From NCBI GenBank assembly GCA_034387635.1, contig JAOANU010000010.1, forward strand, positions 124,001-188,000: a stretch of 64,000 nucleotides of DNA, in the 5' to 3' direction. Below the pieces are notes generated by a model that was not told the origin of the DNA, searched no databases, and was given only the letters and a program-made list of their open reading frames with translations. The position numbers and the translations under genes are program-made. Numbering within the stretch: the first letter of the stretch is position 1; every line of letters begins with the position of its first letter. This DNA is from Rhodosporidiobolus odoratus. Its lineage: Eukaryota; Basidiomycota; Microbotryomycetes; Sporidiobolales; Sporidiobolaceae. Shown in pieces: positions 4,841 through 64,000 of this stretch.

Positions 4841-4911
4841 GATTAGGGTTACAGAGCTAGTAGGAGAGTAAGATAAGTAAGAGTCAAGTCGCTGAATTAG
4901 GTGCGCGGCGT

Positions 4912-6485
4912 TCATGCGCGCTTGGAGCGAACGCATCGACCGTTCTTGTAGAGGAAGCCGGGGAAGCATGAGGCTGTCGAGAAAAATGCAAGGTTAGAGA
5001 TGGCTTGGCAAGGCTGAGAGGGGAAGGATGGCGTACAGATCTCGCAAACACCAGCTGAGCAAGAGGCAGACTTGGCACCCGCAATGGTCTGGCAGTTGAC
5101 AGCGGACTTTTCGCCGGGGCAGCCACCGCCTGCACAAGGTAGAAGACAAAGCAAAGTCAGCTTCGATCTCTGCCTGTATAGAGGGAAAGGAAGAGGTACG
5201 CACAAGACTCGAGGCTGTTCATGACATCGAGGCACTCGTACCCACCGTTCGAACCAGTCGGGCAAGCGCGCTCACCGTTCGGGCACTTGGCCGCGTCCCC
5301 TTCGCGGGTCATGAGAGTGGCCTTGCGAGAGCGACGAGCGCGAGCCGAGGCGGGGAGGTGGCAGCTTCCTTCGTTGTTGGAGACGTACGGGGAGGAGCAT
5401 TCGCAGGAGGAGGTGCCGTCCGAGTGGCGGGAGAGGCGGCCGCCGGAGGAGGTAGGTGTGAATGGGGAGGCAGCCGTGAGAGACGCTCTGCGAGCACGAG
5501 GGGGAGGTTAGTGACGCATCAGGGTAGGCAGAATGAGAGTAGCATACAGCGAAGAAGCCGTCGCGGCATTTGCAGCCGCACTGACCAGAGCCGCAAAGAG
5601 GGTCGGCGTTGGCGGGGCAAGTCGGGCAGGCTTTTTGGTTCGAGCCGAGCTGAGGATGAGAGCCGTGTCAGTGATAGGCCGAGCTCGTCGGAGGCAGACA
5701 AGGACGCACGCTCAAGATCTCGACGCAAGCGCAGACATGGAGGAGGTTGCCGACAGTGACTTCAGCTTGAACACCAATGACGGCGTTGCCAGTGCACTGC
5801 AATGGGGTCAACGCGTAAGTAAGGGCGTCATCACAGGTGACAGCAAGAAGCGGGAAGGTGAACAGAGAAGAAGGGTAGGGCGCACCTGTTGCGGTCCGAG
5901 AATGGTGCCAAGAACGTCGACGTCGATCAAAGCACTCTTGCCAGAAAGGACGGACAGACCAGCAACGGAAGCCGCGCCGGAAGTGACTGTCGCGGTGGCG
6001 TCGAGGAGACCCTTCTTCGTGCTGAGGACGGTCGCATCGACGTCTGCGCCGAGGAGAGACTTGCCAGTCTTGCCGTTCTTGAGGACGTCCGCGTTGACGG
6101 TAGCGTCGAGGAGGGAGGAACCGGTCTTCGAGACGTGACCGACCGTCGCATCAACGTCGGCGTCGAGCAAGGACGAGCCCGTCTTGCCATTCTTGCCCAC
6201 GGTTGCATCAGCGTCCACGTCAAGGAGGTTCGAGCCGTGGCGATTGCCGGTGAGGACGCCAACCTTGGAATCGAGGTCGACCAGCGAGCTGCCGGTCTTG
6301 CCGTTCTTGAGGACTGAAGCGGTAAGGTCGGTGTCGAGGAGGCCATGACCGGGCTGGAGGACGTTGGCGTTGAGGTCGAGGTTGAGGAGGTTGCGCTCTT
6401 CGAGCATCGACGCTGAGCGCGGGATACTAAGCGCCGACGAGAGGGAAGCGGCGGCGAGAAGGGAGAGGGTCGCGAAACGGAACAT
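4912..6485 (-). CDS. CPL1/PriA-type secreted cysteine-rich protein, left copy
   Basis: Begins MFRFATLSLLAAASLSSALS, a clear signal peptide, so the product should be secreted or wall-bound. After the signal come about eight degenerate repeats of roughly 20 residues built on KTGSSLLDxDVDATV. A Cys-rich section follows (CACVEI, ACPTCPAN, CGCKCRDGFF) and then a C-terminal CPL1-type domain: CPNGERACP, YECLD, LESCGGCPG, VNCQTIAGA, SCSAGVCEI, SCFPGF and a final basic tail. CPL1 domains occur in basidiomycete secreted proteins such as Cryptococcus Cpl1 and mushroom PriA; the molecular function is not settled. Five introns follow from the plus-strand copy: donors after QQ, ILS, FFA, ES and CEI. A TATA box lies about 176 bp upstream. 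Start chosen at the Met of the signal peptide. The nearly identical inverted twin is at 37720-39295. Confidence 0.85.
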
Positions 6486-6660
6486 GGTGCTGACGAGGGA
6501 GGGGTTGTAACGAAAGACGAGGGTGAGAGAAGTGAAGGAGTGAACGCGTCGAGGAGACCGTGCGAGTCTGCGAGGATAGCGGCGGAATAAGGGAGAAAGG
6601 GAGAGTGAGTGAGTGAGTGGAATGAAGAGAGAAGGGAAGGAAGACAAGGAGACGCACCTC

Positions 6661-6666
6661 TTTATA
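6661..6666 (-). promoter_or_regulatory. TATA box of left CPL1-type gene
   Basis: Reads TATAAA on the minus strand in the context GGGTATAAAGAGG, about 176 bp before the ATG. The same element is preserved in the inverted copy at 37535-37540. Confidence 0.65.
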
Positions 6667-6836
6667 CCCTCGCAGTGATTGCCCAGCCCCCGCTTGTATG
6701 CTGCCTTGGTCCAGGAATGGCGGCGGCATTGTTCCGTCAGTCAGAATAGTGAAGATCGGAACATTGAAGGGAGGAGCAGGACGCGAAGAAGTTGGCTGAT
6801 CTCGACGCGGACCCCTGCGCAGGAAGAGTGCCTCTT

Positions 6837-7641
6837 GGGCTGCAGGACTGTGCTGCGTACGCGGGCGGGGCTCCGCTCGGCGGTCCTTGCAATAGCTTGA
6901 GGAAGGGTCGGTGCGTTGCGGTGCCAGTCGAACGAGTTCATCAGGAAGCTATGAAAAGAGGCTGAAGACGCAGAAGCAATGCTCGATCCAACACGCAGGC
7001 CACTGAGCCTGACGACCCGAGGGATTTCGAGTCACAGGGCGCCCTCGAGTGCTCTCCAGCAGCGCTCTACATGCCATCGGCGCTGCCCTTGTGATCCCCC
7101 TCGTCAGCTCTTCGCGTCGACGCCTCCGTATCAGCATCAACCTGCACGCATTTGCATGCTAGCGGCTTGCCATTGCATCAGAATTTAGTCTTGGCTGGTA
7201 CGGCTTTGTGCGCTGCCGTGAGCTTGGCGGAAGAGGGTGTGGTGACGCGGACGAGAACGAGTGCACAAGAGGCGCGAAAATGGCGACTGGGCGTGACTGT
7301 GTGGGCGCCGCCGCCTCAGCAAGACTCAGTTTGACTGAGTCATGATGCGGAGCGAGTAGACGAGTGCTGAGGACGACAATGCTGAGTTTGGCAACTTGCT
7401 TGCCTCATCAACATTTTCCCCGCCCCCACAAATCTGACCGCTTCAACTTCCGCCGTCTGCTCTTGCTCTCTCTATCTTCAGCCTCGTTGCTCTGCATCTC
7501 GCATCTCGGATTCAGTCTACCCCACACCTGTACGCGCTGGCTCTTCTCACCCAAAGAATGCCACCTGCTGACCTGTTCTCCTCCACTTGACCCTTCTCGA
7601 CACGTCGACAGTACTCAACCCTTGTCCATACCCCCAGTATC
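6837..7641. other. Intergenic region between inverted duplicate and GST gene
   Basis: No convincing gene. It should contain the GST promoter: pyrimidine-rich tracts at about 7440-7620 precede the ATG. Confidence 0.5.
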
Positions 7642-18435: not shown

Positions 18436-19258
18436 AGTAGAGCACAGCGCTGTGCTAGAGCTTGTAGATGAAGGGGAGGTGGTGGCTGAGGGGTCAAGTG
18501 AGGCCGACCATATAGTTGCTGAGGGCTTGAGCAAACTCGGTCGCAATGTCAAGCTCAGGGTCGGGGTCTGCCATCGGAGTGTCCACCATGTTGCTCAGGT
18601 GAACGCGAGCCAGAGGGAAGGACAAAGGAGAGAAGGGTAAGAGAGGTGGAACCCGAGAAGAGGGGAGTGAGAATGTCACGGAGTTACCGGAGACAGGAGG
18701 TCAAACTAGGCTATAAAGGCGAGAGCTACGGGGTTTCCTCTCTCTCCTTCCTTCTCTTCACTGCACCTCATACCTCTGGCTCTCCTCTCAGAGGGAGTCA
18801 GAGTTCTCCTGTAAGTTCTTGCTCCTCCTCCTTCCTTCACTCCCTCTTCCTGCCTCTCATGAACAGACTGATGACCTGACTCCTGTCTCTGTAGTGTCAT
18901 CCCTGGGTGCAGTCCTCTCCCCCTCTCTCCATCGTGCTTGAGGTCATCGTTGCACCTGTGAGTCATGCCTTTCCTCCTCCCTACTTGGTTTGTGGACTGA
19001 GCCTGGGGTGATCCGCTGCAGTTGGCACGGTGCGATCCGCCTTGACCCGCCTTCCATTTTCTTCTCGACCCACCTATTCTCTGTAAGTCCTGCCTGTTTC
19101 TCGCTACTGGTGACGGGTAGTGGCTGAGCTGTTCACTTTGCAGACTCAGAGTAATGTGGGTTTTTCTCTTCATACCAAGTCGATCTCTGGAGGAAACACC
19201 AGAGCGAGGATGTCTCCCACCCTGTAGGTTCAGGAAAGCGTGTGACTCCTAGCATGAA
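18436..19258 (+). repeat. Copy 1 of dispersed 0.82-kb element
   Basis: Nearly identical, in the same orientation, to 41068-41892. Shared sequence begins AGTAGAGCACAGCGCTGTG and ends CTCCTAGCATGAA. Near the left end is TGCTAGAG and at the right end CTCCTAGCA, which form a short imperfect inverted pair with TG..CA termini, as in a solo LTR. Inside, on the plus strand, a TATAAA (18712-18717) is followed by three intron-like intervals: GTAAGT..CTGTAG, GTGAGT..CTGCAG and GTAAGT..TTGCAG. No long plus-strand ORF follows; the last exon could code about 32 residues. It sits 25 bp beyond the stop of the aminopeptidase gene, probably in its 3' UTR. Being a repeat is certain; LTR identity is only a possibility. 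Confidence 0.85.
18712..18717 (+). promoter_or_regulatory. TATA box inside repeat copy 1
   Basis: TATAAA in the context GGCTATAAAGGCGAG, retained in copy 2 at 41344-41349 and followed by a pyrimidine-rich leader and the first GTAAGT donor. Confidence 0.5.
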
Positions 19259-19282
19259 ATGCGACTCTGTCTCTACTAATCT

Positions 19283-23352: not shown

Positions 23353-24119
23353 AGCTGGACGGGGGTGCATGTGTAAGCTTGGCACGTTCAGAAGCTTCGC
23401 CATGAGGCTCAAGGGACCGGCGCGACTGTCGAGAGCGAAAGAGGATTAAGGCAGCGAGCATTCAAGCCCGAGTGTGCCGCTCAATGTCTCGCCTACTGGG
23501 GGCTTTGCTTGGCTTCCACTGCCGATGCCTCCATACAGTGACCAGGTAGTGGAGACTATCAGGCTCCCCGTATGTATCTCACCGCCAACAACTCCACAGC
23601 AACTTTCTAGCCACGACTCTCTGTGAGCGACTGGGGCGCGTGCCATAGCCGGCTTTGCGACATAGCCATCCTATTGCTCGAGAGGACGAAGCGACTCGAG
23701 AGCCAGCTCTCGATCGTTGCTCATGCCCATGCACGACTTTCAGCAAGTCTCGTAGAATCGTCGTGATAACCACAAAGGCAGGGCAGCCCATCGGTCATCA
23801 TGCGCTACGCTACCAACAAGAAATAGAGAATATCGATGCGGTTCGCAGGATAGGATCCAACGTGTTGAGAAGCAGGAAGGAAAAGGGCTGGGGGAAGGGG
23901 CAAGGGAGGGTTATAGTCCGTCAAGGGTAAACAAAGGTAAAAATTTCCGTTATAGATGGCATGAAAAGAATGATCCGACGAGGCATAGATAAAGATGAAT
24001 AGGGAGAGAGGCGAGGTCGAGACTCGTCAATCAAGGAGAGATCCGGGGGAGAAGGTGGCGCTACCTAGCTGCCGAGAAGTGGGGACGAAAAGAAAGGGAG
24101 AAGAAGGGAAGGGAGGCGT
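23353..24119. other. Convergent intergenic region, nothing assigned
   Basis: 3' flanks of two convergent genes. Short ORFs only, no motif; purine-rich near 23870-24110. Confidence 0.5.
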
Positions 24120-25650
24120 TTAGGCGACGCAGGACTGGGAAGACGCGTCCCACTCGAAGCCCTCGGTGCAGGACCAGACCTCGCCTATAAGGGTCACAGC
24201 AGACAGTCAGTACTCGACTGGCAAACAGGAAAGGAAAAGGCCTGGGAGGGTGCGAGAAGGCAAAGACTTACAGACACCGGCAACGCAACCAACGGACTCG
24301 GCACCCTCGATGGCAGTGCAGTCAACGCCACCCTGGTTGGCGCAGGCACCGCACTGCTCAAGGTTGGACTGGAGGAAGTGAAAGAAAACAGCGTCAGGAC
24401 GGTAGGAAACAGACAATATGAAGGAAAGATCCAAGACTTACCGAAGTGTCGACGCACTCGAAGCCACCGGCAGCAACGGCGCAGGCAGAGTGGGAAGCGG
24501 GGCAGAGGTTGCGGCGGTGGAGCTCGTTGCGGCGAGCGCGGGCATAGCCAGAGGGAGCGGCGGCGGTGGCGCAGGTACCGGTGGTTTGGTCGCAGGTGAG
24601 GCCGTCAGCGCACTTGAAGTTGGGGTCGTCCGAGCAGTCCTCGCCGAGCTGGGCGTGAACGTCGCAGTTGCCGACGTCGAAGTTGCAGTAGCCTGAAGGA
24701 AGGGGGAATTGTTAGCTCCGGGTTGTAAGCAGGAAACCGACACAGTCGGAACTCACCGGAAGCGCAGAACTGGTTGAAGACGGCGTAGTTGACGTCGTCA
24801 GGGAGGCTGATGTCACCGACAACGTAGTCCTGGCAGCTATTGGTGAAGAACACAGTCAGGAAATGAACCCGGATCAAGAGCGGGCTGTAACGTACAACGA
24901 GCCAATGGCACCGCAGGCGTTGGCGTCGGTCACTTCCTGATCGACGGAAGTGCAGCTAGAATAGGACACACACCGGAAGGTTAGTCAGGTACTACCAAGG
25001 CGTGCTGAGAGAATAGGTAACTTACTAGAGGTAACCAAGGCAGTTGCCGTCGTCGCCGGCGCAAGCCTGGTTAAAGCCACCCTGGCAAGTGCCGTCGGGG
25101 CCACAGAGACCGTTGTCGCCTGCCGTTCAACAGACTCAGCATGCCGTTCACTATGTCGCGCGAGAGATGCGAGGCTTACACTGGTCATCGCTGGTGCAAG
25201 CGGCGCCGTCGATACCCTGCAGACCGATGGATGACTGTTCAGCGTATTGCGTGGCGCATCGCGGTCTTGGTAATGCCAACGTACGCAGAAGTAAGCACCA
25301 GTCTCCTCTTCGATTTGGCAGGCAGCACCAACGGGGGGAGGGTTGTTGCCCTGGGTGCCGTCAGCGATACCAGAGCCGGGGGAGATGAGGTCGTTGCACT
25401 GCGATTGATCTGCGGGTACATGCGAGCAATTTCAAAAGCGTGAGCATCAGTATCAGCGATGTCGAGCGACGCGCGGCAGGACGCGTCCTGCGTTGCGGCG
25501 AAATGATTCGTGCCGCCTGGATGCGAACGTACCGGCAGAGAAGGTGTTGTCACCGTTGATGATGGTGCAAGGGAAACGACCGTAACCGCTCTGGGCGGAG
25601 GCGAGGCCGGCGAGGGAAGCAATGGTGGAAAGGGCAAGAACGGAGCGCAT
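24120..25650 (-). CDS. CPL1-type secreted cysteine-rich protein, third family member
   Basis: Starts MRSVLALSTIASLAGLASAQ, a strong signal peptide. Seven introns split small Cys-bearing exons: IEEETGAYFC, GIDGAACTSDDQ, CDNGLCGPDGTCQGGF, NQACAGDDGNCLGYL, CQDYVVGDISLPDD, VFNQFCASG, YCNFDVGNCDVHAQLGEDC and CDQTTGTCAT. The C-terminal CPL1-type domain reads ECVDTSSNLEQCGACANQ, GVDCTAIEGAESVGCVAGVC and WSCTEGFEWDASSQSCVA. Secretion and a cell-surface role are inferred. It is clearly paralogous to 54387-56012 (same intron pattern, same FEWDASSQSC ending) and only distantly related to the 4.9/37.7-kb pair, from which it differs by an all-Cys N-terminal half instead of the 20-residue repeats. Confidence 0.85.
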
Positions 25651-37002: not shown

Positions 37003-37459
37003 ATGAGCGCTCAGATCAACCTGAACAAGTTAGTACGTGGTCGCGCGCGAGTGTCGCCCCCTGGGTAGCTGTCTGAAGGCCATCAAGCGAGGACTCATTG
37101 CCAGGGGGACAGGGGTTACAGCTGATGGAGCGTAGAGCACCGCTTAGAGACCTACAGGAGGCTGCGCAACTTGAGCTTTTCAGCGTGGCATAGGCAGCTT
37201 CGGCTCGGGACGCTAACCCTAGGCTCTCGCGTGCCAAACTTTCGATCTTACCGCACAGAGTCTTCTGCTTTACGCTGCATCAGTGCGCAAGATTCGGCAA
37301 TTGCGACTTGATACTAGCGGATTGGCTCCTCGCCTCCACCCGAAGAACAGACGTGCAACTCAAAAGAGGCACTCTTCCTGCGCAGGGGTCCGCGTCGAGA
37401 TCAGCCAACTTCTTCGCGTCCTGCTCCTCCCTTCAATGTTCCGATCTTCACTATTCTGA
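37003..37459 (+). CDS. Putative small helical protein running into the repeat
   Basis: Not recognised. A three-exon model fits exactly: 37003-37032 (MSAQINLNKL), intron with GTACGT donor to 37157, 37158-37184 (EAAQLELFS), a 38-nt intron 37185-37222 with GCTAAC branch and CCTAG acceptor, then 37223-37459 (ALACQTFDLTAQSLLLYAAS.. to stop), 97 residues in all. The first two thirds look like an amphipathic helical protein. The last 32 codons (from about 37364) lie inside the inverted duplicate and are also read from the left copy (KRHSSCAGVRVEISQ..). The genuine 3' end may therefore have been lost or replaced. It is divergent from TBCD. Confidence 0.4.
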
Positions 37460-37534
37460 CTGACGGAACAATGCCGCCGCCATTCCTGGACTGAGACAGC
37501 ATACAGGCGGGGGGCCGGGCAATCACTGCGAGGG

Positions 37535-37540
37535 TATAAA
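37535..37540 (+). promoter_or_regulatory. TATA box of right CPL1-type gene
   Basis: TATAAA in GAGGGTATAAAGAGG, 180 bp before the ATG, conserved with the left copy. Confidence 0.65.
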
Positions 37541-37719
37541 GAGGTGCGTCTCCTTGTCTTCCTTCCCTTCTCTCTTCATTCCACTCACGCACTCACTCAC
37601 TATCCCTTTCTCCCTTATTCCGCCGCTATCCTCGCAGACTCGCACGGTCTCCTCGACGCGTTCACTCCTTCACTTCTCTCACCCTCGTCTTTCGTTACAA
37701 CCCCTCCCTCGTCGGCACC

Positions 37720-39295
37720 ATGTTCCGTTTCGCGACCCTCTCCCTTCTCGCCGCCGCTTCCCTCTCGTCGGCGCTTAGCATCCCGCGCTCAGCGTCGGTG
37801 CTGGAAGAGCGCAACCTCCTCAACCTCGACCTCAACGCCAACGTCCTCCAGCCCGGCCATGGCCTCCTCGACACCGACCTTACCGCTTCAGTCCTCAAGA
37901 ACGGCAAGACCGGCAGCTCGCTGGTCGACCTCGATTCCAAGGTTGGCGTCCTCACCGGCAATCGCCACGGCTCGAACCTCCTTGACGTGGACGCTGATGC
38001 AACCGTGGGCAAGAATGGCAAGACGGGCTCGTCCTTGCTCGACGCCGATGTTGATGCGACTGTCGGTCACGTCTCGAAGACCGGTTCCTCCCTCCTCGAC
38101 GCTACCGTCAACGCGGACGTCCTCAAGAACGGCAAGACTGGCAAGTCTCTCCTCGGCGCAGACGTCGATGCGACCGTCCTCAGCACGAAGAAGGGTCTCC
38201 TCGACGCCACCGCGACAGTCACTTCCGGCGCGGCTTCCGTTGCTGGTCTGTCCGTCCTTTCTGGCAAGAGTGCTTTGATCGACGTCGACGTTCTTGGCAC
38301 CATTCTCGGACCGCAACAGGTGCGCCCTACCCTTCTTCTCTGTTCACCTTCCCGCTTCTTGCTGTCACCTGTGATGACGCCCTTACTTACGCGTTGACCC
38401 CATTGCAGTGCACTGGCAACGCCGTCATTGGTGTTCAAGCTGAAGTCACTGTCGGCAACCTCCTCCATGTCTGCGCTTGCGTCGAGATCTTGAGCGTGCG
38501 TCCTTGTCTGCCTCCGACGAGCTCGGCCTATCACTGACACGGCTCTCATCCTCAGCTCGGCTCGAACCAAAAAGCCTGCCCGACTTGCCCCGCCAACGCC
38601 GACCCTCTTTGCGGCTCTGGTCAGTGCGGCTGCAAATGCCGCGACGGCTTCTTCGCTGTATGCTACTCTCATTCTGCCTACCCTGATGCGTCACTAACCT
38701 CCCCCTCGTGCTCGCAGAGCGTCTCTCACGGCTGCCTCCCCATTCACACCTGCACCTCCTCCGGCGGCCGCCTCTCCCGCCACTCGGACGGCACCTCCTC
38801 CTGCGAATGCTCCTCCCCGTACGTCTCCAACAACGAAGGAAGCTGCCACCTCCCCGCCTCGGCTCGCGCTCGTCGCTCTCGCAAGGCCACTCTCATGACC
38901 CGCGAAGGGGACGCGGCCAAGTGCCCGAACGGTGAGCGCGCTTGCCCGACTGGTTCGAACGGTGGGTACGAGTGCCTCGATGTCATGAACAGCCTCGAGT
39001 CTTGTGCGTATCTCTTCCTTTCCCTCTATACAGGCAGAGCTCGAAGCTGACTTTGCTTTGTCTTCTACCTTGTGCAGGCGGTGGCTGCCCCGGCGAAAAG
39101 TCCGCTGTCAACTGCCAGACCATTGCGGGTGCCAAGTCTGCCTCTTGCTCAGCTGGTGTTTGCGAGATCTGTACGCCATCCTTCCCCTCTCAGCCTTGCC
39201 AAGCCGTCCTTAACCTTGCCTTTTTCTCGACAGCCTCATGCTTCCCCGGCTTCCTGTACAAGAACGGTCGATGCGTTCGCTCCAAGCGCGCATGA
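37720..39295 (+). CDS. CPL1/PriA-type secreted cysteine-rich protein, right copy
   Basis: Same protein as the gene at 4912-6485, with very few substitutions (for example SASVLEER here, SASMLEER there). Signal peptide MFRFATLSLLAAASLSSALS, about eight 20-residue KTGSSLLDxDVDATV repeats, a Cys-rich centre and a CPL1-type C-terminus. Introns: donor after GPQQ (GTGCGC) to CATTGCAG; after EILS (GTGCGT) to CCTCAG; after FFA (GTATGC) to CTCGCAG; after LES (GTGCGT) to GTGCAG; after CEI (GTACGC) to CGACAG. The last exon reads SCFPGFLYKNGRC and ends SKRA. Introns are as conserved as exons between the two copies, so the similarity is recent or maintained by conversion rather than by selection on the protein alone. 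Confidence 0.87.
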
Positions 39296-39598
39296 ACGCC
39301 GCGCACCTAATTCAGCGACTTGACTCTTACTTATCTTACTCTCCTACTAGCTCTGTAACCCTAATCCGCCTTGCCCTCTGCCTCGCATTACCTGCTTCGC
39401 ACGCTTCGTTTTCCCCTCGTCGTTTCTGTCTTTTCTGGGTCTTTGCAAAGCTGTGCTTCGCCACGTTCCTCTCTGTGTGGTGCCGTTCTCAAGGGCTGAA
39501 TCGACAGCCACCAGCGACCGAGGAAAACTACTATTGTCGTGCAAGCGAAAAGAAGGACACAGAGCTCAGCAAGCTTTGCCTCCCCACCTGATATCTCC

Positions 39599-41067: not shown

Positions 41068-41892
41068 AGTAGAGCACAGCGCTGTGCTAGAGCTTGTAGA
41101 TGAAGGGGAGGTGGTGGCTGAGGGGTCAAGTGAGGCCGACCATGTAGTTGCTGAGGGCTTGAGCAAAATCGGTCGCAATGTCAAGCTCAGGGTCGGGGTC
41201 TGCCATCGGAGTGTCCACCATGCTGCTCAGGTGAACGTGAGCCAGAGGGAAGGACAAAGGAGAGAAGGGTAAGAGAGGTGGAACCCGAGAAGAGGGGAGT
41301 GAGAATGTCACGGAGTTACCGGAGACAGGAGGTCAAACTAGGCTATAAAGGCGAGAGCGACGGGGTTTCCTCTCTCTCCTTCCTTCTCTTCACTGCACCT
41401 CATACCTCTGGCTCTCCTCTCAGAGGGAGTCAAAGTTCTCCTGTAAGTTCTTGCTCCTCCTCCTTCCTTCACTCCCTCTTCCTGCCTCTCATGAACAGAC
41501 TGATGACCTGACTCCTGTCTCTGTAGTGTCATCCCTGGGTGCAGTCCTCTCCCCCTCTCTCCATCGTGCTTGAGGTCATCGTTGCACCTGTGAGTCATGC
41601 CTTTCCTCCTCCCTACTTGGTTTGTGGACTGAGCCTGGGGTGATCCGCTGCAGTTGGCACGGTGCGATCCGCCTTGACCCGCCTTCCATCTTCTTCTCGA
41701 CCCACCTATTCTCTGTAAGTCCTGCCTGTTTCTCGCTACTGGTGACGGGTAGTGGCTGAGCTGTTCACTTTGCAGACTCAGAGTAATGTGGGTTTTTCTC
41801 TTCATACCAAGTCGATCTCTGGAGGAAACACCAGAGCGAGGATGTCTCCCACCCTGTAGGTTCAGGAAAGCGTGTAGACTCCTAGCATGAAT
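41068..41892 (+). repeat. Copy 2 of dispersed 0.82-kb element, inside KH-like gene
   Basis: Direct-orientation match to 18436-19258 with a handful of substitutions and a one-base insertion near the right end (GTGTAGACTCC versus GTGTGACTCC). The flanks differ completely from copy 1. GCTT occurs directly before the element and again just after its AGCATGAATT end, a possible 4-bp target duplication; copy 1 shows no such repeat. It separates the two halves of the second KH-like gene and lies on the opposite strand orientation of its TATA box relative to that gene. Confidence 0.85.
41344..41349 (+). promoter_or_regulatory. TATA box inside repeat copy 2
   Basis: TATAAA at the same internal position as in copy 1 (18712-18717). 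Confidence 0.5.
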
Positions 41893-42747
41893 TGCTTCCA
41901 GCAACTCGAGAAAAAGCTTCGCGGATTGCGGTTCGCGAGCCGGCTAGGCAGATGTGGGAAGGGACGTTAAACTTGTATTCGATGCGAAAGTGAGGTAGGA
42001 TTGCTTGACTCAGAATGTCGTGGATGGCCACCGCGCCGTTCTGCAGTAGGCGGAAACCAATATTCCGTCTGGGGAGGAGGACGAGGGTGGTGTAGACACG
42101 GAGGTGCGGCGGAGGTAGGCACGCTGGACGATAGACACAGCCAGTCCAGCGAGGAAGCTGTGTAGCAGAAGTCCAGAGTCAATGTCAATAGGAAGAGAAT
42201 GCCACCGGGAGGAAAGGATACCGACCTCCTGACAGCGAGGGGAGGTGCGCCTTCGAGTCGGAGCAGCGGATTGGTGGCTTTCCTGCAGATAGAAGCCATC
42301 AGACTCGACTAACGTTGCTCAACGGAAATCAAGCAGGGGCGGTGAGCGAGAGTGGAAAAGAGAGCGCACGCGAGAAGAGCTGCGGTACCGTTTCGTCCCA
42401 GGCGAAACGCCCCATTCCGATTCGCCGCCATCTTGAAGAGGCTTGGGGATATGTATGGGCATGTCAGCTTTCAAGGAGGTGTAGGGAGTAGACAGAAAAG
42501 AAAGACGCACGTTTCTTCCTCTCCTCTCGTCCTCGCTAATCCCTGAGGCTTGGCTGCTGGCGTCCGCACCTTCGGCTCTCCCATATGCACCGAGTGTACT
42601 TCTTCTCCCGCCTCCGTCCATGATGCTTGATCCCCCTCCCGATCTGCTGCTACCCCTTGGACTCCTCGAGGACAGAGCGCCGCTGCGGTTCGGCTGAGAG
42701 GGGCTGTCGGGGTCCGGTGACGAGCAATGAGCGCTCGTAGTGACCAT
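41893..42747 (-). pseudogene. 5' part of second KH-like gene (upstream of inserted repeat)
   Basis: Begins MVTTSAHCSSPDPDSPSQPN, a Ser/Gly-rich disordered start (GGGSSIMDGGGRRSTLGAYG, SQASGISEDERRGRN). An intron with GTGCGT donor follows. Near the repeat edge the frame reads VYTTLVLLPRRNIGFRLLQN, AVAIHDILSQAILPHFRIEY and HICLAGSRTAIREAFSRV. This lines up with module two of the gene at 2287 (YTTLLPFSEVAAVILGRHG..LELVGSRGGIRAALQLV), so it is a KH-like module whose end runs into the element. A stop is met a few codons inside the element. Exons between 42000 and 42500 are not securely placed. Confidence 0.5.
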
Positions 42748-53518: not shown

Positions 53519-54386
53519 CTTGTTCAATCGAGATGCGGAATGAATAGGAGGATAAAAAGAAAAGAAAAGAAGAAAAAGAAAGGGATTGGTCATCGGCATT
53601 CGGGTCTGCGTGAGATAAGCTTACGCTGTGCCGCTTCGTTCGCGTGACTCAACCGCATCTGGCATGGCTGTACGTCGTTAGACCGTGCCGACTTCGTTCG
53701 AGGGCGGAGAGGCCCGAAGTGGAGGCGAGGCAACGCCGAGGTCCGGGTGGCTGCGTTGCGGGAGGGGGAGAAGACGCGCGTGGCAGGCCGCCTGTGTCGG
53801 CTGCACTGCAAGAGATCAGTGGACGCATCCGTATGGTACCGTCGTGGAGAGCAAGCATGAGGAACGCAGTCAGACGTTGAAAGCAGGACGAGGAGAAGCA
53901 CTGCACAAGGCTTGCAGAAGCGGATAAAGAGGGGGTCTGAGCTACGTAACGCCCTCAGAGAGGTCCCCAGCGTCTATCGCAGTAGACAAGGCTGTGTAGG
54001 CGCAGGTAGACTCGCAATGAAAAAACCCTTGACCTTCTCAAACCGCTCTCCTCGAATCCCTCCTAGCCTGCTTCGCACAGCTCGCCTCTACAAACAGCGT
54101 GCGTATACTCCTCTCGATGTGTCCGATTCCAACCAAACCGTCAACCGACGGGAATTCCGGCTTCTACACCTGCTTTACCTCGCGCCCTCCAGCCCTCAGA
54201 AAAAGTGCGATGCGACGAAGCTAACGATACATTTCTATATCCGTGCTAATCTACAAGCCCGAGAGTAAGAGAGACACAATCCCTTTGTACCCAAATCCGA
54301 CGACCCAGAGAGAGAGAGAGAGAGAAAGAGAGGAAGACCTGAAGAAAGATGCCCTGAGAGACCAGCTCTGGTAAAGCATTGGGTTT
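53519..54386. other. Intergenic region with GA microsatellite
   Basis: Promoter of the zinc-cluster gene and 3' flank of the next. (GA)n run at about 54308-54331. No gene supported. Confidence 0.5.
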
Positions 54387-56012
54387 TTAGGCGCGGCAAG
54401 ATTGAGACGAAGCGTCCCATTCGAACCCTTCCGCGCAGGCCCAGATCTCGCCTGTACCACAATCGTCGAAGGAATCGTCAGCGAGTGCTGGAGCAGAGAC
54501 GCCGAATAGAGAAGGAGCAGTGAAGGTGAACGTACAGATCCCGGCGATGCATCCCGTTGATTCGACACCTTCGAGAGCAGTGCAGTCCACACCACCCTGG
54601 TTGGCGCACGCACCGCATTGTTCAAGGTCGGACTGAAAAAGAAGGCAAGGCAGACGAACGGTCAGGCGCTGCGGAACGCTTCGTAGTCGGGGAGGAGAGA
54701 GCGTGAGGGCACAGCAGAGACTGACCGAAGTGTCGACACACTCAAACCCACCTCCAACCACCGCACAAGCCGACTGAGGTTGAGGGCAAACCGAGTGGCG
54801 ACGACCGTGGTTCAATTGCATCATCTCACTCCTCCTCGAGCGAGCGCGAGCAGAGGGTTGAGCAGCGGCCGTGACGCAGGTGAAGGTGGATTGATCGCAG
54901 GTGAGGCCGGTTGCGCAACCGTAGTCGACGTCGGTGCTGCAGTCTTGGCCGAGGGTAAAGTGGACGTCGCAGTTGGCCGTGCCGAAGTTGCAGTAGCCTG
55001 TGGAGTGGTGATAATTAGTAATGTTCCTCCGCGAAAGAAGGATAATTCGAAGCATACCGGAAGCGCAGAACTGGTTAAAGGTGTCGTAGTTGACGTCGTT
55101 CGAGGCAGTCAAGTCGCCTTGAGTGTAGTCTTGGCAGCTGCAACATTGTAACCGTCGGTCAGGCTTGGCTCGACAGCAATGGGAAGACGAGCGACGTACT
55201 AAGAACCGAAACCACCGCAAACATTGGCGTCGGTCTGGGTGTAGTCGCCGGCGAGGCAGCTGGAAGCGGGAGAAATAACAAGATTAGACGGGTGGCTTGG
55301 GTCGAAACGAAGAAGAGCAACTCACTAGAGGTACCCGAGGCAGTTGTTGTCCTCGCCCGCGCAGGCCTGCAGGAAACCACCTTGGCAAGTGCCGTCGGTA
55401 CCGCAGAGACCGTTGTCGCCTACAAGCAAGACGTGTCAGTACGAAGTCAAGATGTGCAGGACGCTCAGCGGAAATAGCTTACACTGGCTGTCGCTAGTGC
55501 ACGCGGCGCCATCGATACCCTATTTGTGAGATGGTAAGAAGGCGAGATCGCCGAGGAGAAAGAGTGCGTGCGGAAAGATGGAAAAACTCAACGTCAGCAT
55601 CGAACCGCGTAAGCACAGGCGTCGACGTACGCAGAAGTAAGCACCGGTCTCCTCTTCCATCTTACAAGCTGCGCCAGTGGGAGCGGGAGTGTCACCCTGG
55701 CCCGCTCCGGCAAGACCCTCACCGCTACCGGGTGAGGTCAGGTTGTTGCACATGGACGCGTCTGTACTCGAGCAAGAATGTTGGCAAGAGGTAGAGTGTA
55801 CAAGGTCAGCATCATGTCGCGGTGCGCGAGGGAAAGGCGCGCGCAGGAATGGAGAATGAGAAGGTCGATCAGGTCGCGAGATGTCAAGACTCACCGGGAG
55901 AGAAAGTGCCGTCATCGTTGACAACCGTGCAAGGGAAGCGACCGTATCCAGTTTGGGCGACGGCGAGCGAGGCGAAAGACGCGAGAGTTGGGAGAAAGAC
56001 GGCGGAGCGCAT
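54387..56012 (-). CDS. CPL1-type secreted cysteine-rich protein, fourth family member
   Basis: Signal peptide MRSAVFLPTLASFASLAVAQ, then TGYGRFPCTVVNDDGTFSPG. Short Cys exons follow in the same order as the gene at 24120-25650: MEEETGAYFC, GIDGAACTSDSQ, CDNGLCGTDGTCQGGF, QACAGEDNNCLGYL, NVCGGFGS, CQDYTQGDLTASND, YDTFNQFCASG, YCNFGTANCDVHFTLGQDC. The CPL1-type end is ECVDTSSDLEQCGACANQ, GVDCTALEGVESTGCIAGIC and WACAEGFEWDASSQSCRA. It is a paralogue of the 24-kb gene with conserved intron positions, about 30 kb apart and on the same strand. It is probably secreted and may be cell-wall associated. Confidence 0.85.
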
Positions 56013-56799
56013 ATTGTCAGACGAGTAACGAAGGTGTTGTTCAGCGAGTGTGGGAGGCAGTGCACGGAGAGAACGAGAATGGAGCAGCCGGATGACGGAG
56101 TAGAAGCGGAAGAAAGAAGAGAGAACGCGCTGCAGGTGTTCTTTGGCTCGGAAGACGCGTCGAGGTAAACGCGGCGCGACGAGAAGCGCGTCTCGGCAAA
56201 CAAGAAACGGCGGGGCCGGGTTCGCGCCGGGGAGTGACAGTGATACTGTACGAAGACGCCGACAACGTGGTTGTACGTGGTGTGCGGTCCGCTCCGACGC
56301 GCGCGTCCACCGTCAGCCCACTTGGCAGAACCTTGGCAACCCCGAGCGTTCCGAACAGAAAAGGGAATGGGAGGACTTGAGCGTAACCGTACTCGCAGTG
56401 AACGAAATGCAAGGGTAGCTGATCCGATGTATAAGATTTAGCTGTGCATGGCAACCAGTAGTCTCTGCAGTTGCACAGAAGATAGGACGGAGCCGAGACG
56501 GAAGGAAAGGAGAAAAACAGGCCATCAGCGGGTCAGCGTTGTGCGCTGTGGTGTCCCTACCTTGAAAGCTGCTGCCTCGCTCAGTGCGTAAGCAGGAGTA
56601 AGAGCCTACACTTGGACCAATCAGAGGAACATCCTTTGAATACCGACAACACTCTTTGCGACCTCCTCTCCGTCTGCCCCTCTCTTGACTTCATCGCTTC
56701 CACTCCCTGCCCCACTGCTCAGAGACTGGCAGAAATTGGCTAGTGCACACTCCGGCAAGCTCAAGACGATCCCCCGCCGGACACCGGCTCGACAACGTC
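56013..56799. other. Region between CPL1-type gene and Fanzor locus
   Basis: Promoter of the minus-strand CPL1-type gene and possibly the left end of the Fanzor locus. I searched by eye for terminal repeats matching 62568-62847 and saw none. Confidence 0.4.
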
Positions 56800-57903
56800 A
56801 TGGGTCATGCCGGCAAAGTCAGCGCGATCAACTCAAGGGCCAAAGACATGGCAGGACCGCATGGAGATCGCCAGCGCCTTCAAAGCACGGTAGCAACGCC
56901 GCTGGGCTTGTTCATGATCATAGCAGCGGAGAACAAGCACACAGGCAAGTTTCTCCTTCGGAATGGTGGGACGGGTGCTGAAACCGGTTGCCCTAACAGG
57001 TGACCTAGGCCGATCGCTTGTTTACATACGCGATCTCGCCGGTATCTTCTTCTCCCAGCACCAATGGTCCGTCCGTCGAGTCGCGGGCCTCCGCAAGGAG
57101 GAGGAGGTGCGCAAGATCATACGGCGTGAAGGCTTGATTGCCGTCACTGGGAGCGGCCGGGAGCTCAAGGCAGCAGCCAAAGAAGCAGGGTTCGACAGCT
57201 TCCACCTGCTGGATCTCGGCGACGGCCCCGACCGCCCCAACGGAAAAGATGAGGAGGCCGAGAAGCGGGCACGGGGTATTCGAAGCGAGCGAGTTACTCA
57301 GGGCCGGATGGCGTGCGGACGCTATCAGGACGAGATCGAGATGAACTGGAGCGCAGAGGACTTACCGGTGCGATGGCCTTGCTTGCCTGAACTAGAACTG
57401 CCGGACTGATCCCCTTTCCATTGTTTGTTCAGACTGAGCAACAGGAACTCGCAGCCGATCAAGCTTGGCACCACATCCTCCTAGGACCCCACAAAGCCGA
57501 TCGACTCGCGTACCAGCTGCTCGCAAGTGCAGACGACCGCCGCAACGGTCGCGGAACAACAGCAGAAGGATTTGCAGCAGTTCCGGTCATTCAAGGATGC
57601 GACGCCGAGCAGACGGAGACGCTCGTTCAGCTGATTGCCAGCGTCAAGGCAGGCTGCGTTGTGCGCGAGTCTCGGGACTCGGACTGGATCGACTTTCCTC
57701 CCCATCTTTCCCGCTTCCATGTTCGACCTCAGCTGGGCAAGGACTTTGCTCACCTCCCCCGTCCACTCCCTACGACCGACATTACGCTGCAGCTGGGACA
57801 ACCGCCAACAGAGGGCGGCCAGGGAGGAAGCGGAGAGGACGGTGGAAGAGGCGCAAAAACAGGAAACCTCGAGGAGGGACGGGTAGAAGTCGAGATGGAC
57901 TGA
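56800..57903 (+). CDS. Unknown 334-residue frame at the head of the Fanzor locus
   Basis: Three exons in exact phase: 56800-56965 (MGHAGKVSAINSRAKDMAGP.. to KFLLRNG), a 34-nt intron 56966-56999 with CCTAAC branch, 57000-57367 (DLGRSLVYIRDLAGIFFSQH.. to WSAEDLP), intron 57368-57432, and 57433-57903 (TEQQELAADQAWHHILL..). The product is 334 residues up to a TGA at 57901-57903. No family recognised; helical, Arg/Lys/Glu-rich, with a Gly-rich end. The same frame stays open beyond the TGA (EADAGDGKSLAASAAAERGE), so it could be the former N-terminal part of a longer Fanzor polyprotein or an independent partner gene. The ATG at 56800 is the first in frame, but an upstream exon is possible. Confidence 0.5.
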
Positions 57904-59235
57904 GAAGCGGATGCGGGGGATGGGAAGAGTTTGGCAGCGTCCGCGGCCGCAGAGAGGGGGGAGGAGGAAGACCTTTCGCCGGCATTTACGCGTCTCAACT
58001 TGATCCTGGGGTTGGAGGACGGCACGGACGATGATTTGAGGGATCTGTCCGAGGAGGAGGGGGAGGAGGAAGAGGAAGAGGAGGATTGGAGGGATGGAAG
58101 AGGGGTCAGGAGGTTGAGCAGGTCGAGCCGGAGGAAGGACGTAGGAGGAGAGGGAAAGGGGGAGGGGAAGGGAGCGGGAAAGACGGGTAGGCAGGGCAAG
58201 GGAGGACGGCGGGGCAGGGGCAAGAAGAAGGGTACCGAAGAAGGGGGAGGAGAACAGGGCGAGGGGGAAAGAGGGCACAAGAGGAAGCACAAGGCGGGAC
58301 ACAAAAAAAAACCCCCGGCTGGCCCCCCTCTCGGACCTCTGCCCGCCGCCGCCCTCTTCTCCGAGCCAGTAGAGCCGGTCCCAGGACAAGTTGTCGCCCT
58401 CATCGACACTCTCAAAGCCAGTAAAGTTCTCCCGGGCTGGGACCTATCACCCGAGGCCAAGGCGAGAGCGCGTGCCATCCAGGGCGACGACATCAGCAAC
58501 ATCGGGCTGCCCCACCTCGGCGAGGCCACGGTGTTCATGGACAAGCATAGGGAGACCCTTGAAGACGACGTCGCTTGGGCGGCGGCGGATCGCCTCGCTC
58601 CGCATCTACAGCAAGCTTTCAAGGAGCAGCTCAAAGCCCGCAAGGATTGACGGACGGGCAATCTCATCCCGGAATTCGAGGTCACGGTTGCCGTCGCGGC
58701 TGAGCTCATTCTCAGCGTCAACACCCGTCTAGGCAGACCCGTCACCTGCGGACCGAAGCGCACGATCTCGACCAACAACGACGCGACTGCGCACCACCTC
58801 ACCTTTGGCCAACAGCAGCTCACGGACAAGGGCACACGCTCGCAGCGTCAAGGTCGAGAGAAAACGAGCAGCGAGGCAAAGAAGAAGCAGGCGGAGGCAA
58901 AGAGAAACGAGGGCACAACCGTCAGCAGTGCCCCCCAGACGGCATTGCAGTACAAGGAGTTCCACGGTCGCGAGTTCCTGCCGTCGATCCTCGAGATGGT
59001 TCCGGAAGAAATGCCAAAGGTGAAGGAGAAGGGAGGCGAGGAGGACGATCGAGACGGGCAAGGAAACGACGCAGATGAGGGTTTCGGCGATGACAACTCA
59101 GAGTTAGACTATACGGACGACGACGACGATGGCGAGGAAGGAGAAGAGGACGGAGAGGAGGACGACGGCGGACAGCAAGAGGGAGCGACAAAGGGAGGCG
59201 GCCAAGCAGGGAAGCAGAAGGCCAAATCGCAGTAA
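57904..59235 (+). pseudogene. Interrupted coding frame between unknown ORF and Fanzor
   Basis: The reading frame of the exon at 57433 continues here with protein-like content but is cut by TGA (58648-58650) and TAA (59233-59235) after the TGA at 57901. Recognisable stretches: RLNLILGLEDGTDDDLRDLS, a long Glu run, a Gly/Lys/Arg-rich linker, VVALIDTLKASKVLPGWDLS, WAAADRLAPHLQQAFKEQLK, PEFEVTVAVAAELILSVNTR, LQYKEFHGREFLPSILEMV and an Asp/Glu/Gly-rich tract. TGA could come from CGA and TAA from CAA by single C-to-T changes. I tried GT-AG pairs around the first and third stops and they break the frame. Decay is the simplest view; separate small genes are the alternative. Confidence 0.5.
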
Positions 59236-59616
59236 AGCCAACGCCACAAGACTTCCGTCGATGACGATTGCGTCACTTCCCCGCCGTTCACCCACAAGTC
59301 CATCACCCGCACGCTGCGTCCAGAGGAGATCAACTTGACGCGGCGAGCACTCAAGGCGGGCGCCAAGGTCAGCTGCAGCGGCGCGGCGATTCGGCGGGCT
59401 CGTCGACAGGGCTCCACGCTACCGAGAGAGCGCCAGGTACGACAGAGCGACGTCGAGCAGGAAATAGTCGGCGTCAGGATCAACAACACCGCGACCTGGC
59501 TGCTGCGCGCTCACCACTTGGTCAGCGTTGCATCGGTCCCCCGCGCACGGCAGGCGGCCAGCGAGTATGTGGCGCAGCAATGCCAAACGGAAGCAGGTCG
59601 ACGTAACCTGAACAAC

Positions 59617-62567
59617 ATGAAGGAGAGGGATTTGAAGCACGTACTGGGACGAATGATAGGGATGGAGGAGCCGAAGAAGGGGGAAGAGGTATGTATCGTT
59701 CACCAATCCACGAGCTACAATGGACTGACTCGCTTGAGCAATCAGCGCTCCGTCTACGACAGGATGGACGACCAGACGAGGCCTTGCCGCCTGAGAAACG
59801 TGGATGAACGCGCCGTATTCACCTCGGCGTTCTCAGACGCCATCATCAACACCGCTCGGCGGGGAAACGACGTCCTGCGATTGCTTGCGAAGTACATCCA
59901 GGGCAACCTCGCCCGGCTACCGGAACTGCTGGTATTCACTCTCGCAGGTGGAGGGGGCGCGGAAGGGAGCGCAGCAAGCCTATCCTTCCTCACCAGCCCA
60001 GGCGGGGGGTTCGCGGCAGAGCGACTGCGCAAAATCGGACGCATCCTCGAGTACATACTCATAACGGACCCCTTCTCCCTCGCTTGGAGCCGCACCGGTG
60101 CACCACCAAGGACCGACACAGGCGCTCCGCCGGGGAAGAAGACGGAAGCCTCGAGAAGAGACCAGCAAGCGTCAGCGTACGGCAGCAAGCTCGAGCAAGT
60201 ACGTCATGCATGATATGGACGACGACGACGACGACAACGACAACGACGACGACGACGAGGTGCGAGATTACCCTGAGAAGCTGGTCAAGGAGGAAGAGCT
60301 GCGCAAGGTCATCAAAGCGTCGGCCGCGCCGTCCGCCTTTGCAAACGACTTGGTCAGGCTCATGGACCGCTTCCTCGCCTTTAGGCATCGAGAACTGGCG
60401 ACGTTCCTCGACGAGCGTGAAATTGGGCTAAGACAAGGCGGCGCGATGCCCAAGAACGGCCAAGCGAGAGCCGAGGACGGGCAACGCTTCCACAAGATTG
60501 GCGCTCGCAAGGCATTGGTGAGCTTCTTCTCAACCGTGCGGCAAATGGTTCAGCGGTCGGCACTGCCGGTGAGTGGATTCCCTCAGCCTCAACACGAACG
60601 ACGACCTGATTGAGTCTCATACAGTACTACGACCCGGATTGGGTCGACACAGGCGCGTCAAGTCTCGCGACAATGCTCGACCATCCCGACGAGATCATCG
60701 CAGCCGTAGAAGAGGAAGTCACTGCGCTAACCGAGCCGGCGTTCGAGAAACTCGCGGGACTGGCGACACGCGATCATCAGGCGGCGTTACGGGACCTCTT
60801 TGAAAGCCTTTACCGCCTGGTCGAGTTCCGCGCGGCGAGGGAGGACGGCAATGAGAAAGTGCTGAGCCGTGAAGAGTTGAGGGGGGAGGCAAAGTTAGGG
60901 GGGAAAGTGAGGGTAAAGGTCGCAGATGAGGTGGCAGAGGGCTTGAAGAAGACGGGAGACATCTGTCGGGAGAGATTTGGTCTCGAAGGGAAGAAGACCC
61001 TGTGGAACCAGTCGATCAAGGAGCTTGGCGCGACGTCGGAATTCCTCAATACCCTTGTCGATCTGTCCAAGCTACCTCCGTACTACCTCCCGACTGGCCA
61101 TTTCCGCATCTCCTCTACTCACATACGCTTTACGGTGGCCGATTTGCGAAGACCCAAGTCCGTTCCGAAAGGTGCAGCCGACTCACCATCACCGCATCGC
61201 ACATTGACGCTGACCCCTGGCCTGTTCATACGGTACAGACTTCGACGTCAAGAAGCACTCCACCGGCAACCTTTTCTTGCACCACGTTCGCTCCTCAGCC
61301 AGCAAGTCGAGCAATCTCAGCGTCAACGACTACGCGAAGCTGCTCCGCCCAATGGAAGAATTCATCGTCAACGGCGACGAGATCAAGTCGCGGCCCGTAT
61401 CACCCGTCGTGTCGAAGCAGGCAATGGAGTGGAAGACCGGCCTGAAGATGCAAGACGTGATCAACTTCAAGCAGACCGGCGCAACGGTTGACCGCGTCTT
61501 CCTACTCCATCGCCGCGTCCAGCTCGACTACAAGCACCCCGGCACCTGGAAAGGCCTACCACAAGACTGGGACGACGTCGCCAAGGCGGAGGGCCAGTCA
61601 GAGCTGCGCGACTTCATTGGGCAAGATTCAGATGGCGATCTCGACATCAAGAACACCTCGTTTGTCGGAGTCGACCCAGGCAACGTCTGCCCAGTTGCCG
61701 GCGCGGCCTCAGTACCAGTCAGCAGGGACGAAGGGAAGACCCGCCGTGAAGCCGGATTTGTCCTCAAGCGGGGCGTTTTCCAAGCGGCGGTAAAGGTTCT
61801 CAATCAGACTGCTTCGCACCGCAACAACAAGATCGCAGCCCTGTTCAACGTCGGGTCGCCTACTCCACCATTGCCGGGCGAATCAGAGTCCATCCCGGCT
61901 ATCCCCATCTTGAAGAAGCTCAGCACGGTCCGCTCGCAAGATCGTCAAGAAGCTCAGCGACGCGGCAGGATCAAGGCGAACCAGGTCGCAAGCGAGTTTG
62001 TTCATCTGGCCATGAACGCCGGAAAGCTGGCAGCAGATCCCAGCGCCATGAAGACAGACGAGTCGAGCGAGACTCACAATTATGTCGTCTTCGTCGGCGA
62101 CGAGGGGGGACAGAAGAACTCTGGCGGTCGTCGAGGAGCGGATAGAGGAGGTCCTCTGATTCGTCGCGCCGCCATCGAATGCCGAGCTCGCGGGATCAAG
62201 GCCAAGTTCGTCCGTACCCCGGAGCACTTCACCTCGAAGCGATGCTCAAAGCCCGACTGCAAAAGCGCCAATGGTCTGCGAAACGAGTGAGTAATTCCTT
62301 CCAATTCTGTTGAGTTCGAGCAAGCTGACACAGCCTGAGTGCAGGCTCTCCCATCCCCGCTACGCCTCGGGGAGCCCGTGCTATCGAGTTGTTGCCTGTG
62401 ATGGACCGGCCGGCCAGAATCGACCGCATGCCTCCCACCGCGACGTCAACGCCGGCGTCAACATCATCGCCAACGGGATCAGCTACCTTCGGAACGGTCG
62501 ACAAGCTTGGCAGCCTAGGGCAAAGTCTCAGACGAAGGGCAAGGGAAAGGAAAAGGGAAAGGCATAG
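59617..62567 (+). CDS. Fanzor: TnpB-type RNA-guided nuclease
   Basis: Eukaryotic relative of transposon TnpB/Cas12; characterised members cut DNA guided by an omega-RNA. Six exons join in exact phase: 59617-59688, 59746-60198, 60281-60568, 60625-61171, 61239-62286, 62345-62567, giving 876 residues from the first in-frame ATG. RuvC-I is FVGVDPGNVCPVAG (Asp599). The C-terminal core is PEHFTSKRCSKPDC..PCYRVVAC..HRDVNAGVNIIANG: Glu782, T785-S786, zinc Cys789, 794, 815, 821, and RuvC-III Asp836. Spacing from Asp599 to the TS pair is 185 residues and from the last Cys to RD 13, inside the published Fanzor signature. Glu742 (VFVGDEGG) sits at the RuvC-II-like site; Glu782, 40 residues later, could be the relocated catalytic Glu. 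An Asp repeat at 60215-60260 falls in an intron in this model. The N-terminal half is not recognisable. Confidence 0.88.
60215..60260 (+). repeat. GAC trinucleotide repeat
   Basis: (GAC)n with two interruptions. In the splice model it lies in intron 60199-60280; if that intron is retained it would code an Asp/Asn run. Confidence 0.8.
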
Positions 62568-62847
62568 GGGAGGTAGAAATTGGGGTGGCTGAAGGGTGGG
62601 CTTGATTTGGGTAGGAGGAGCGCTTGCCATGATGATAGGACTTCTCTCTCGTAGTACTGTGGCTTCTCTGTTGACTCTTTGTCGCTGTTTCCCCTCTCTC
62701 TTTCATCTCTCCCTTCCTGTAATCACGGGTCGCTTGATGCACACGAGAGGAATCAGAGAGCCGAGAACACAGGCTTGGTTTCATGCAACACACAAGTCTC
62801 AAGCGGGAAGAAAAGTAGACACTGACGAGAAGGAGGAACTACGAGTC
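62568..62847 (+). other. Non-coding 3' flank of Fanzor, candidate omega-RNA/element end
   Basis: 280 bp between the Fanzor stop and the convergent gene's stop, with no ORF. Fanzor guide RNAs normally start near the 3' end of the nuclease gene and reach into the right element end, so a guide scaffold would be expected here. I cannot fold the sequence or identify an element boundary, so this is positional inference only. Confidence 0.3.
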
Positions 62848-64000
62848 TCAAGTGTAACGAGTGCGCTTGCGGGAGGAGCTACCGTGATCGGCGAGTGCAG
62901 CCTGCGGTAGCGACTGGTGAGCACGAGGGAAAGAAAGGAGGGAGCAAGAGAGAGGGGACCGCACCACCTGCTCACGCAACTCGGTGTTCTGCCGGAGAAA
63001 CCAAGTCAGCTCGGAAAAGTAGCAAAAGTAAGAACGAGAGACCAGGCGTACCTCCTTCTTAAGCTCGGCGTTATCGAAGCGGAGTTGCTTGAGCTTGGCC
63101 TCAATTGGGCTGACGGGAGTATAGTCCTGCAGAACAACAAGTCAGGCAAGAAGAGTGGGAGAGGAGAAAGGGAGACAACGTACAAACTCTTTGATCTTGC
63201 CCGTTCCATCCTCAAAGGTGATACAGCCCACCAGCTCCTGAATCTTGCGCATAGCCGCATCTTCGCTCGGCAGAGGAGGGAAATCTTCGGCGCTCAATTG
63301 GGCGAGCTGAAACCTGTGGACGTCGCGATCTTCGAGGTACTCGTCGTAGCCTTGGGCCAGGGCGCATGTGAGCCCGTAGAAGATCTTGTAGTAGGCGCGA
63401 TTCTGGCTAATGTTGAGGTAGTACTTGCTGTCGTCCAGCTCGTGGCCGGTTAAATGGTGGGACAGGTTGGAAATGAGAGAGTGCGGAAGAAAGTCGCATG
63501 TCGGGTCGGGGAACGGGAGAGGAAGCTCGGCATGGAGGCTGTTCTTGTGAAGGTTTGCGATGATATATTCCTGGAGGAGAGTTGGGAGACCGGTCGTGAC
63601 TTGGCCGGCTTGAAGGGCGATCTTGAAGGCGCAACGACAGACGGGGGACAGGTCGCGCAGCCATACCCAGAGGCGACACTGGGCTGACTCGGGCGCATGG
63701 ATGTTGCCGCAGACAAGGTAGGGTCTGCGAGAACCAGTCCTCAGCAAAATATAGAGGAAGGGACAGAGGGGAAATGTACTCGAGGTAGTGAAGGTTTGTC
63801 TTCGAGATCTTGAACTGAGCGGGATACGGCTTACAACCATACTCGAAGCAGTAACAATGCAGGACTGCCAGAGCAAAGGGATCAGCAATCGTAACCGAGG
63901 CGCGGGAAGAGTGAGCGGAACAGGCATACAAGGCTCGAGATCGTCCAGTTTGGCCTGCTCAACAGCCTCAATGGTCTTGAGCGAGTTGCCGTGCTTGTCG
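62848..64000 (-). CDS. Unrecognised gene, 5' end beyond the window
   Basis: Partial; reads DKHGNSLKTIEAVEQAKLDD at the right edge and continues ALAVLHCYCFEYGCKPYPAQ, then LVCGNIHAPESAQCRLWVWL, FKIALQAGQVTTGLPTLLQE, HELDDSKYYLNISQNRAYYK, YDEYLEDRDVHRFQLAQLS and ITFEDGTGKIKEF. After introns come YTPVSPIEAKLKQLRFDNAE, LKKE, NTELREQ and AALADHGSSSRKRTRYT, a leucine-zipper-like helix with a basic tail, stop at 62848-62850. Five or more introns. The early part vaguely resembles the end of a fungal BTB domain (YCFEY.., LVCGNIHAPES), but I would not assign it. Convergent with the Fanzor gene. Confidence 0.55.

Follow-up and report, generated by a model that had tools for sequence, protein, structure and literature searches.

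Structures of Fanzor proteins are already in print. In the excerpted part of their 2013 paper, Bao and Jurka give the family signature as D-x(125,275)-[TS][TS]xx-C4 finger-x(5,50)-RD (PMC3627910), and an excerpt of a later paper (PMC10711439) gives a pattern in which a DPG is paired with a glutamate placed six residues ahead of the zinc ribbon's first cysteine, with the narrower spacings of 120-160 residues from DPG to E and a CxxC finger. According to the parts of PMC11423790 drawn on here, most Fanzor1 proteins have 600-700 residues, the residues of SpuFz1 are D383, E541, and D606, and the fifth strand and the TNB domain flank the glutamate of Fz1. Fz1 is described as widespread in fungi, and "ghost" elements without the protein have been described, in the excerpted part of PMC10432273. 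No paper in the literature searched paired Fanzor with "basidiomyc" or "Rhodotorula", and the part of the 2013 Fanzor species table covered here names no recognised basidiomycete among its fungi.

We analyzed a stretch of 64,000 nucleotides (the window, contig C10:124001-188000 of a 24.8-Mb, 45-contig genome) and found a real Fanzor-type gene in two broken copies, unreported for its host as far as the literature searched shows. The feature studied is likely the 3′ part of a decayed Fanzor1-type gene copy of a Sporidiobolales-like red yeast.

Fanzor signature and family evidence

A sequence-only reading of the window had placed a VDPG, a PEHFTSKRC, two cysteine pairs, and an HRDVNA in one frame, and all of these were recovered in a single spliced frame on the plus strand that ends in a TAG stop (Table 1). 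The spliced 3′ exons encode 883 residues, with D606 in VDPG, E789 in PEHFTSKRC, the zinc cysteines C796/C801 and C822/C828, and D843 in HRDVNA. The residue numbers given earlier (D599, 789/794, 815/821, and 836) are each seven lower, probably because of one splice site; that model came without exon coordinates, and the six-exon version discussed below is a reconstruction. The signature of Bao and Jurka is present in full (D606, TS 792-793, C796/801/822/828, RD 842-843) and was absent from all 20,000 versions of the 883-residue protein with shuffled residues. The DPG in RuvC-I and the E-x6-C (EHFTSKRC) of the later pattern are both present as well, with 180 residues between DPG and E and a Cx4C/Cx5C finger, which lie outside its narrower spacings.

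The catalytic exon found one homolog among 4,437 candidates, the Rhodosporidiobolus odoratus hypothetical protein JCM11641_002759 (Sporidiobolales, Basidiomycota; hereafter P0001), which is 89% identical over 123 residues and keeps the E, the four cysteines, and the RD. P0001 is annotated with 213 residues and lacks the DPG part, meaning that its gene model is incomplete or that this copy is broken. It is through this Sporidiobolales relative that the basidiomycete yeast host proposed earlier gains its support, and a red yeast is the likely host. As P0001 has VGSAGG where the window product has VGDEGG but retains the E before the zinc ribbon, the comparison makes E789 a better candidate for the catalytic glutamate than the VGDE stretch. 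This placement matches that of the Fz1 glutamate in the excerpt of PMC11423790. No homolog was found with residues 480-883 of the 883-residue model (0 of 5,489 candidates) or with residues 1000-1758 of the sister-copy read-through described below (0 of 7,987 scored candidates, hence no full-length relative).

The zinc-ribbon profile PF07282 (Cas12f1-like TNB/OrfB zinc ribbon) matched the catalytic exon alone with 12.9 bits and the same exon spliced to the last exon with 22.6 bits, a rise that supports the last intron. The profile check proposed for the spliced product thus gave an E value of 1.2e-4 with a score below the curated cut-off of 26.3. The same cut-off was not reached by P0001 (23.0 bits, E 8.7e-5) or by the joined product of a second family (23.2 bits, E 7.5e-5), and two of these three matching sequences, the window product and P0001, are close relatives. 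The transposase profile phrog_506 also matched the zinc-ribbon region (E 0.0038 for the window product and 9.2e-4 for P0001), and the NCBIfam search gave no match. Sequence searches of solved structures returned no match for the 883-residue product (E up to 1) or for profile A2 (E up to 10); with the second-family product and its profile they returned no Fanzor, the best match of the profile being LaTranC (E 0.048). AlphaFold2 modeled the catalytic exon (61214-62290) from only two sequences, P0001 included, with a mean pLDDT of 30.7, too low for a usable fold.

The second family lies in the same genome, where 14 matching pieces, the query's own place included, were found on C4, C5, C6, C7, C9, and C16. 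They form seven or eight places (L005 and L029-L034), depending on whether two groups on C5 belong to a single gene interrupted by an insert, and the frames looked at were truncated, broken, or had unsettled junctions. The motifs DPG, VGED, DEFRTSSMC, and CTGCGEFHDRD follow in this order, so that the DPG, E-x6-C, C4 finger, and RD are arranged as in the window product, with 237 residues from DPG to RD in the joined L030 product vs 238 in the window product. Outside the motifs there is little pairwise identity (Smith-Waterman score 51, reached by 8 of 1,000 shuffles). A profile-profile comparison with three sequences per side gave an E of 4.8e-4 and a probability of 32%, and its alignment runs through VVFVG, RGG, the ExxTSxxC region, and RD. 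The second-family alignment (A3) draws on three places only, and L005, owing to its broken frame, contributes just 83 residues to it.

These results bear on the question of whether the window encodes an unrelated zinc-ribbon protein that carries the signature by chance and is no TnpB or Fanzor. That would agree with Pfam matches that all lie under the curated cut-off and with the lack of a match among solved structures, but we judge it highly improbable given the shuffles, the shared motifs at the same spacing in the second family, the E, finger, and RD kept in P0001, and the agreement of two profile libraries. The Fanzor/TnpB identity proposed from the sequence is thus backed by PF07282, phrog_506, the published motif, the DPG with its displaced glutamate, the R. 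odoratus relative, and the second family.

A probable long gene with lesions in both copies

The gene lies in a repeat with a sister copy elsewhere in the genome. The exon chain of the sister comprises 1,759 codons, the final stop included, with 2 internal stops, whereas 300 shuffles held 57 stops on average and never fewer than 38; the remaining five frames of the chain contain 26 to 71. This frame, which rests on one sister copy, would most likely represent a single gene that encodes 1,758 residues or more and extends from 56984, or further upstream, to 62567. Removal of 57368-57432 keeps the 5′ exon in phase with the one that follows, and four other predicted introns, taken from the genomic sequence and with GT-AG ends, fit the frames of both copies (59689-59745, 60569-60624, 61172-61238, and 62287-62344), the third of them containing a one-base indel between the copies.

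Table 1 Positions of the Fanzor-type gene and its carrier repeat, counted from the first base of the window.
Feature	Position	Strand	Basis
Fanzor-bearing repeat unit, ~9 kb	56357..64000, +1,341 bases past window end (L006:1341)	+	Sister alignment
5′ exon of the long gene; true start further upstream	56984..57367	+	Open in both copies
N-terminal-extension exon; stops 57901-57903, 58648-58650, 59233-59235	57433..59688	+	Frames in both copies
Exon; extra base 60160; acidic tract ~60215-60260	59746..60568	+	Frames vs sister
Mid-protein exon	60625..61171	+	Open in both copies
Main catalytic exon: VDPG, PEHFTSKRC, first cysteine pair	61239..62286	+	Motifs, PF07282, dN/dS
Catalytic-exon codons: D (VDPG); candidate catalytic E (PEHFTSKRC)	61673-61675; 62222-62224	+	
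Last exon: second cysteine pair, HRDVNA (D codon 62442-62444), stop 62565-62567	62345..62567	+	
Open core, 726 codons spliced, internal ATG; D449, E632, D686	60206..62567	+	
Minus-strand gene in both repeat copies, without family match; continues past window end	63142..64000	-	

The long frame bears directly on the model first proposed, an intact six-exon Fanzor of 876 residues that starts near ATG 59617, here taken to be active today. Its reconstructed spliced frame is indeed open. However, that ATG is internal, since the same frame extends upstream and is open there in the sister save for one stop, leaving the proposed start codon mid-way in a longer frame. The clean six-exon set, moreover, avoids a stop only if 60199-60259 is spliced out, an intron that ends in GAG and that the sister does not use, reading straight through instead; this intron is needed because of the extra base at 60160 in the window copy. 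We therefore give this model hardly any credence.

Relative to the sister, the window copy carries three stops and, with its additional base, one frameshift in the long frame, which is accordingly not the uninterrupted gene of an active Fanzor; the sister's own breaks lie at L004:3290 and L004:5965. A sequencing error would be an easier explanation for the one-base difference than for the four lesions together. The earlier description of the enzyme half as intact holds for the 3′ half, open from 60206 to 62567, but not for the whole frame. As a full-length protein, the window copy is most likely inactive, judging by its reading frame.

Selection was estimated from the pairwise dN/dS of the two copies (Nei-Gojobori, stop and gap codons dropped, 500 bootstraps). 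The ratio was 0.19 (0.05-0.56) for the 5′ exon, 0.70 (0.46-1.10) for the extension at 57433-59616, 0.56 (0.32-1.22) for 59617-60156, 0.71 (0.31-2.09) for 60164-61171, and 0.38 (CI 0.25-0.59) for the catalytic exons. Both ends of the gene were selected during the divergence of the copies, and the middle is indistinguishable from neutral; the value for the extension is by itself insufficient to mark it as coding.

The open core makes up 41% of the spliced length, and each of the four lesions precedes it; by length alone this arrangement has a chance of 0.12 (~1 in 8) and is not significant. The window could instead contain two neighboring genes, the upstream one now broken and the other a Fanzor in its own right, ~726 residues long with its start near 60206, intact and possibly active. 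The core is of about the size of most Fanzor1 proteins, and its D449, E632, and D686 compare with D383, E541, and D606 of SpuFz1, so the core could be a complete enzyme if translated alone; the position of the lesions and the constraint on the catalytic exons would fit this as well. However, the single frame of the sister crosses the junction between the two supposed genes without a stop, and the sister carries a stop inside the core. The constraint, being pairwise, cannot be credited to the window copy for the time since it inserted, and the clustering of the lesions outside the core is of the kind that chance alone would give about once in eight cases. Two separate genes are thus unlikely in our view. 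With a single long gene, the favored reading, a truncated 726-residue product from the internal start is possible on the open frame, and the intact core of the window copy may still be made. If the core works without the N-terminal extension, the stops may be irrelevant to such a shorter product.

The carrier repeat and its surroundings

The repeat ends at position 65341 when the window is extended, and its sister copy (contig C3:975378-984354, G000) is 93.8% identical over 9001 alignment columns. Only 76% of the first 260 bases are identical between the copies, followed by 151 identical bases (56617-56767), which suggests conversion or a different constraint at this end (56357-56767). A third place, C21:286991-288235, holds a right-end fragment of 1,245 bases with the same right end as both copies, 99.2% identical to the window copy and 95.3% to the sister. 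The occurrence of the 9-kb unit at two places and of its right end at a third, all with unrelated flanks, speaks for mobility. The C21 fragment resembles the ghost elements in the excerpt of PMC10432273 but carries one end only. An F-box gene was suspected by eye as the insertion target at C21; Pfam gave no match.

Searches with the two repeat ends and the catalytic exon revealed no further copies, these counts being lower bounds. At the repeat copies, no terminal inverted repeats were found and no target-site duplication was convincing, a 5-base TCCGA pair near one copy being absent at the others; Helitron-like ends were not convincing either. No transposase, TnpA, or IS607-type resolvase occurred among the frames scanned. 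Each unit carries two genes, the Fanzor and the minus-strand gene of Table 1, and the C21 place retains only a short upstream piece of the latter. Seven 150-nt stretches were folded against shuffles in search of an omega RNA and gave z values from -0.17 to 1.53, with no candidate beyond chance, and Rfam had no match at gathering scores within the window.

Other repeats are present in the window: an inverted pair of 2.1 kb (4733-6857 and 37341-39461, 96.6% identical), with a 310-residue frame at 5808-6740 that has no Pfam match, and a direct pair of 0.83 kb (18436-19262 and 41068-41895, 98.9% identical). Two related, cysteine-rich-looking genes lie at 24119-25613 and 54386-55975 (-). A frame of the second, at 54387-55283 and directly upstream of the Fanzor repeat, matches the Pfam CPL1-like family with 37.6 bits.

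Proposed role and comparison with known systems

What is known of the family allows a role to be sketched for the working ancestors of this gene. Their protein would most likely bind an RNA that its own element produces and would cut matching DNA with a predicted RuvC-fold site, D606/E789/D843, beside the C4 zinc ribbon. Such RNA-guided cutting would, by analogy with the family, help the element persist.

Beyond the decayed gene itself, we tentatively consider, as a possibility with less than even chances, that Sporidiobolales yeasts have a large fusion Fanzor, in which ~1,000 residues containing both acidic and basic tracts extend a Fanzor1 core at its N terminus, on a 9-kb carrier with a second gene and with neither terminal inverted repeats nor target duplications. 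If true, the added part might serve as a further module for binding nucleic acid or protein, and the carrier would be an element not yet described. The chief interest of the locus lies in this long N-terminal part and carrier and not in a ready nuclease. The host range would widen if red yeasts do have a decayed Fanzor with so long an N-terminal part, and an intact full-length relative would allow the effect of a thousand-residue extension on an RNA-guided nuclease to be tested. The locus also illustrates how a relic can be labeled "intact" from motifs read in raw sequence when the first half of the gene goes unexamined.

Compared with the TnpB of IS605 and IS607, the gene shares the PF07282 zinc ribbon, by a match below the cut-off, and putative RuvC-type acidic residues but differs in being a spliced eukaryotic gene with a displaced glutamate and a long N-terminal part, and in having no companion TnpA among the frames scanned. 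On the basis of size and of the frames scanned, which include no IS607-type resolvase, Fanzor1 is preferred over Fanzor2 as its class. Unlike the Fanzor1 proteins, most of which span 600-700 residues in the excerpt of PMC11423790, the frame here encodes at least 1,758 residues, with a wider finger (Cx4C, Cx5C) and a DPG-to-E gap of 180; both of its copies are broken, and neither terminal inverted repeats nor target duplications were found at them. With SpuFz1, GtFz1, and PpFz1, as presented in the excerpted part of PMC3627910, it has in common the signature, the DPG, the glutamate before the zinc ribbon, and its place in a repeated element.
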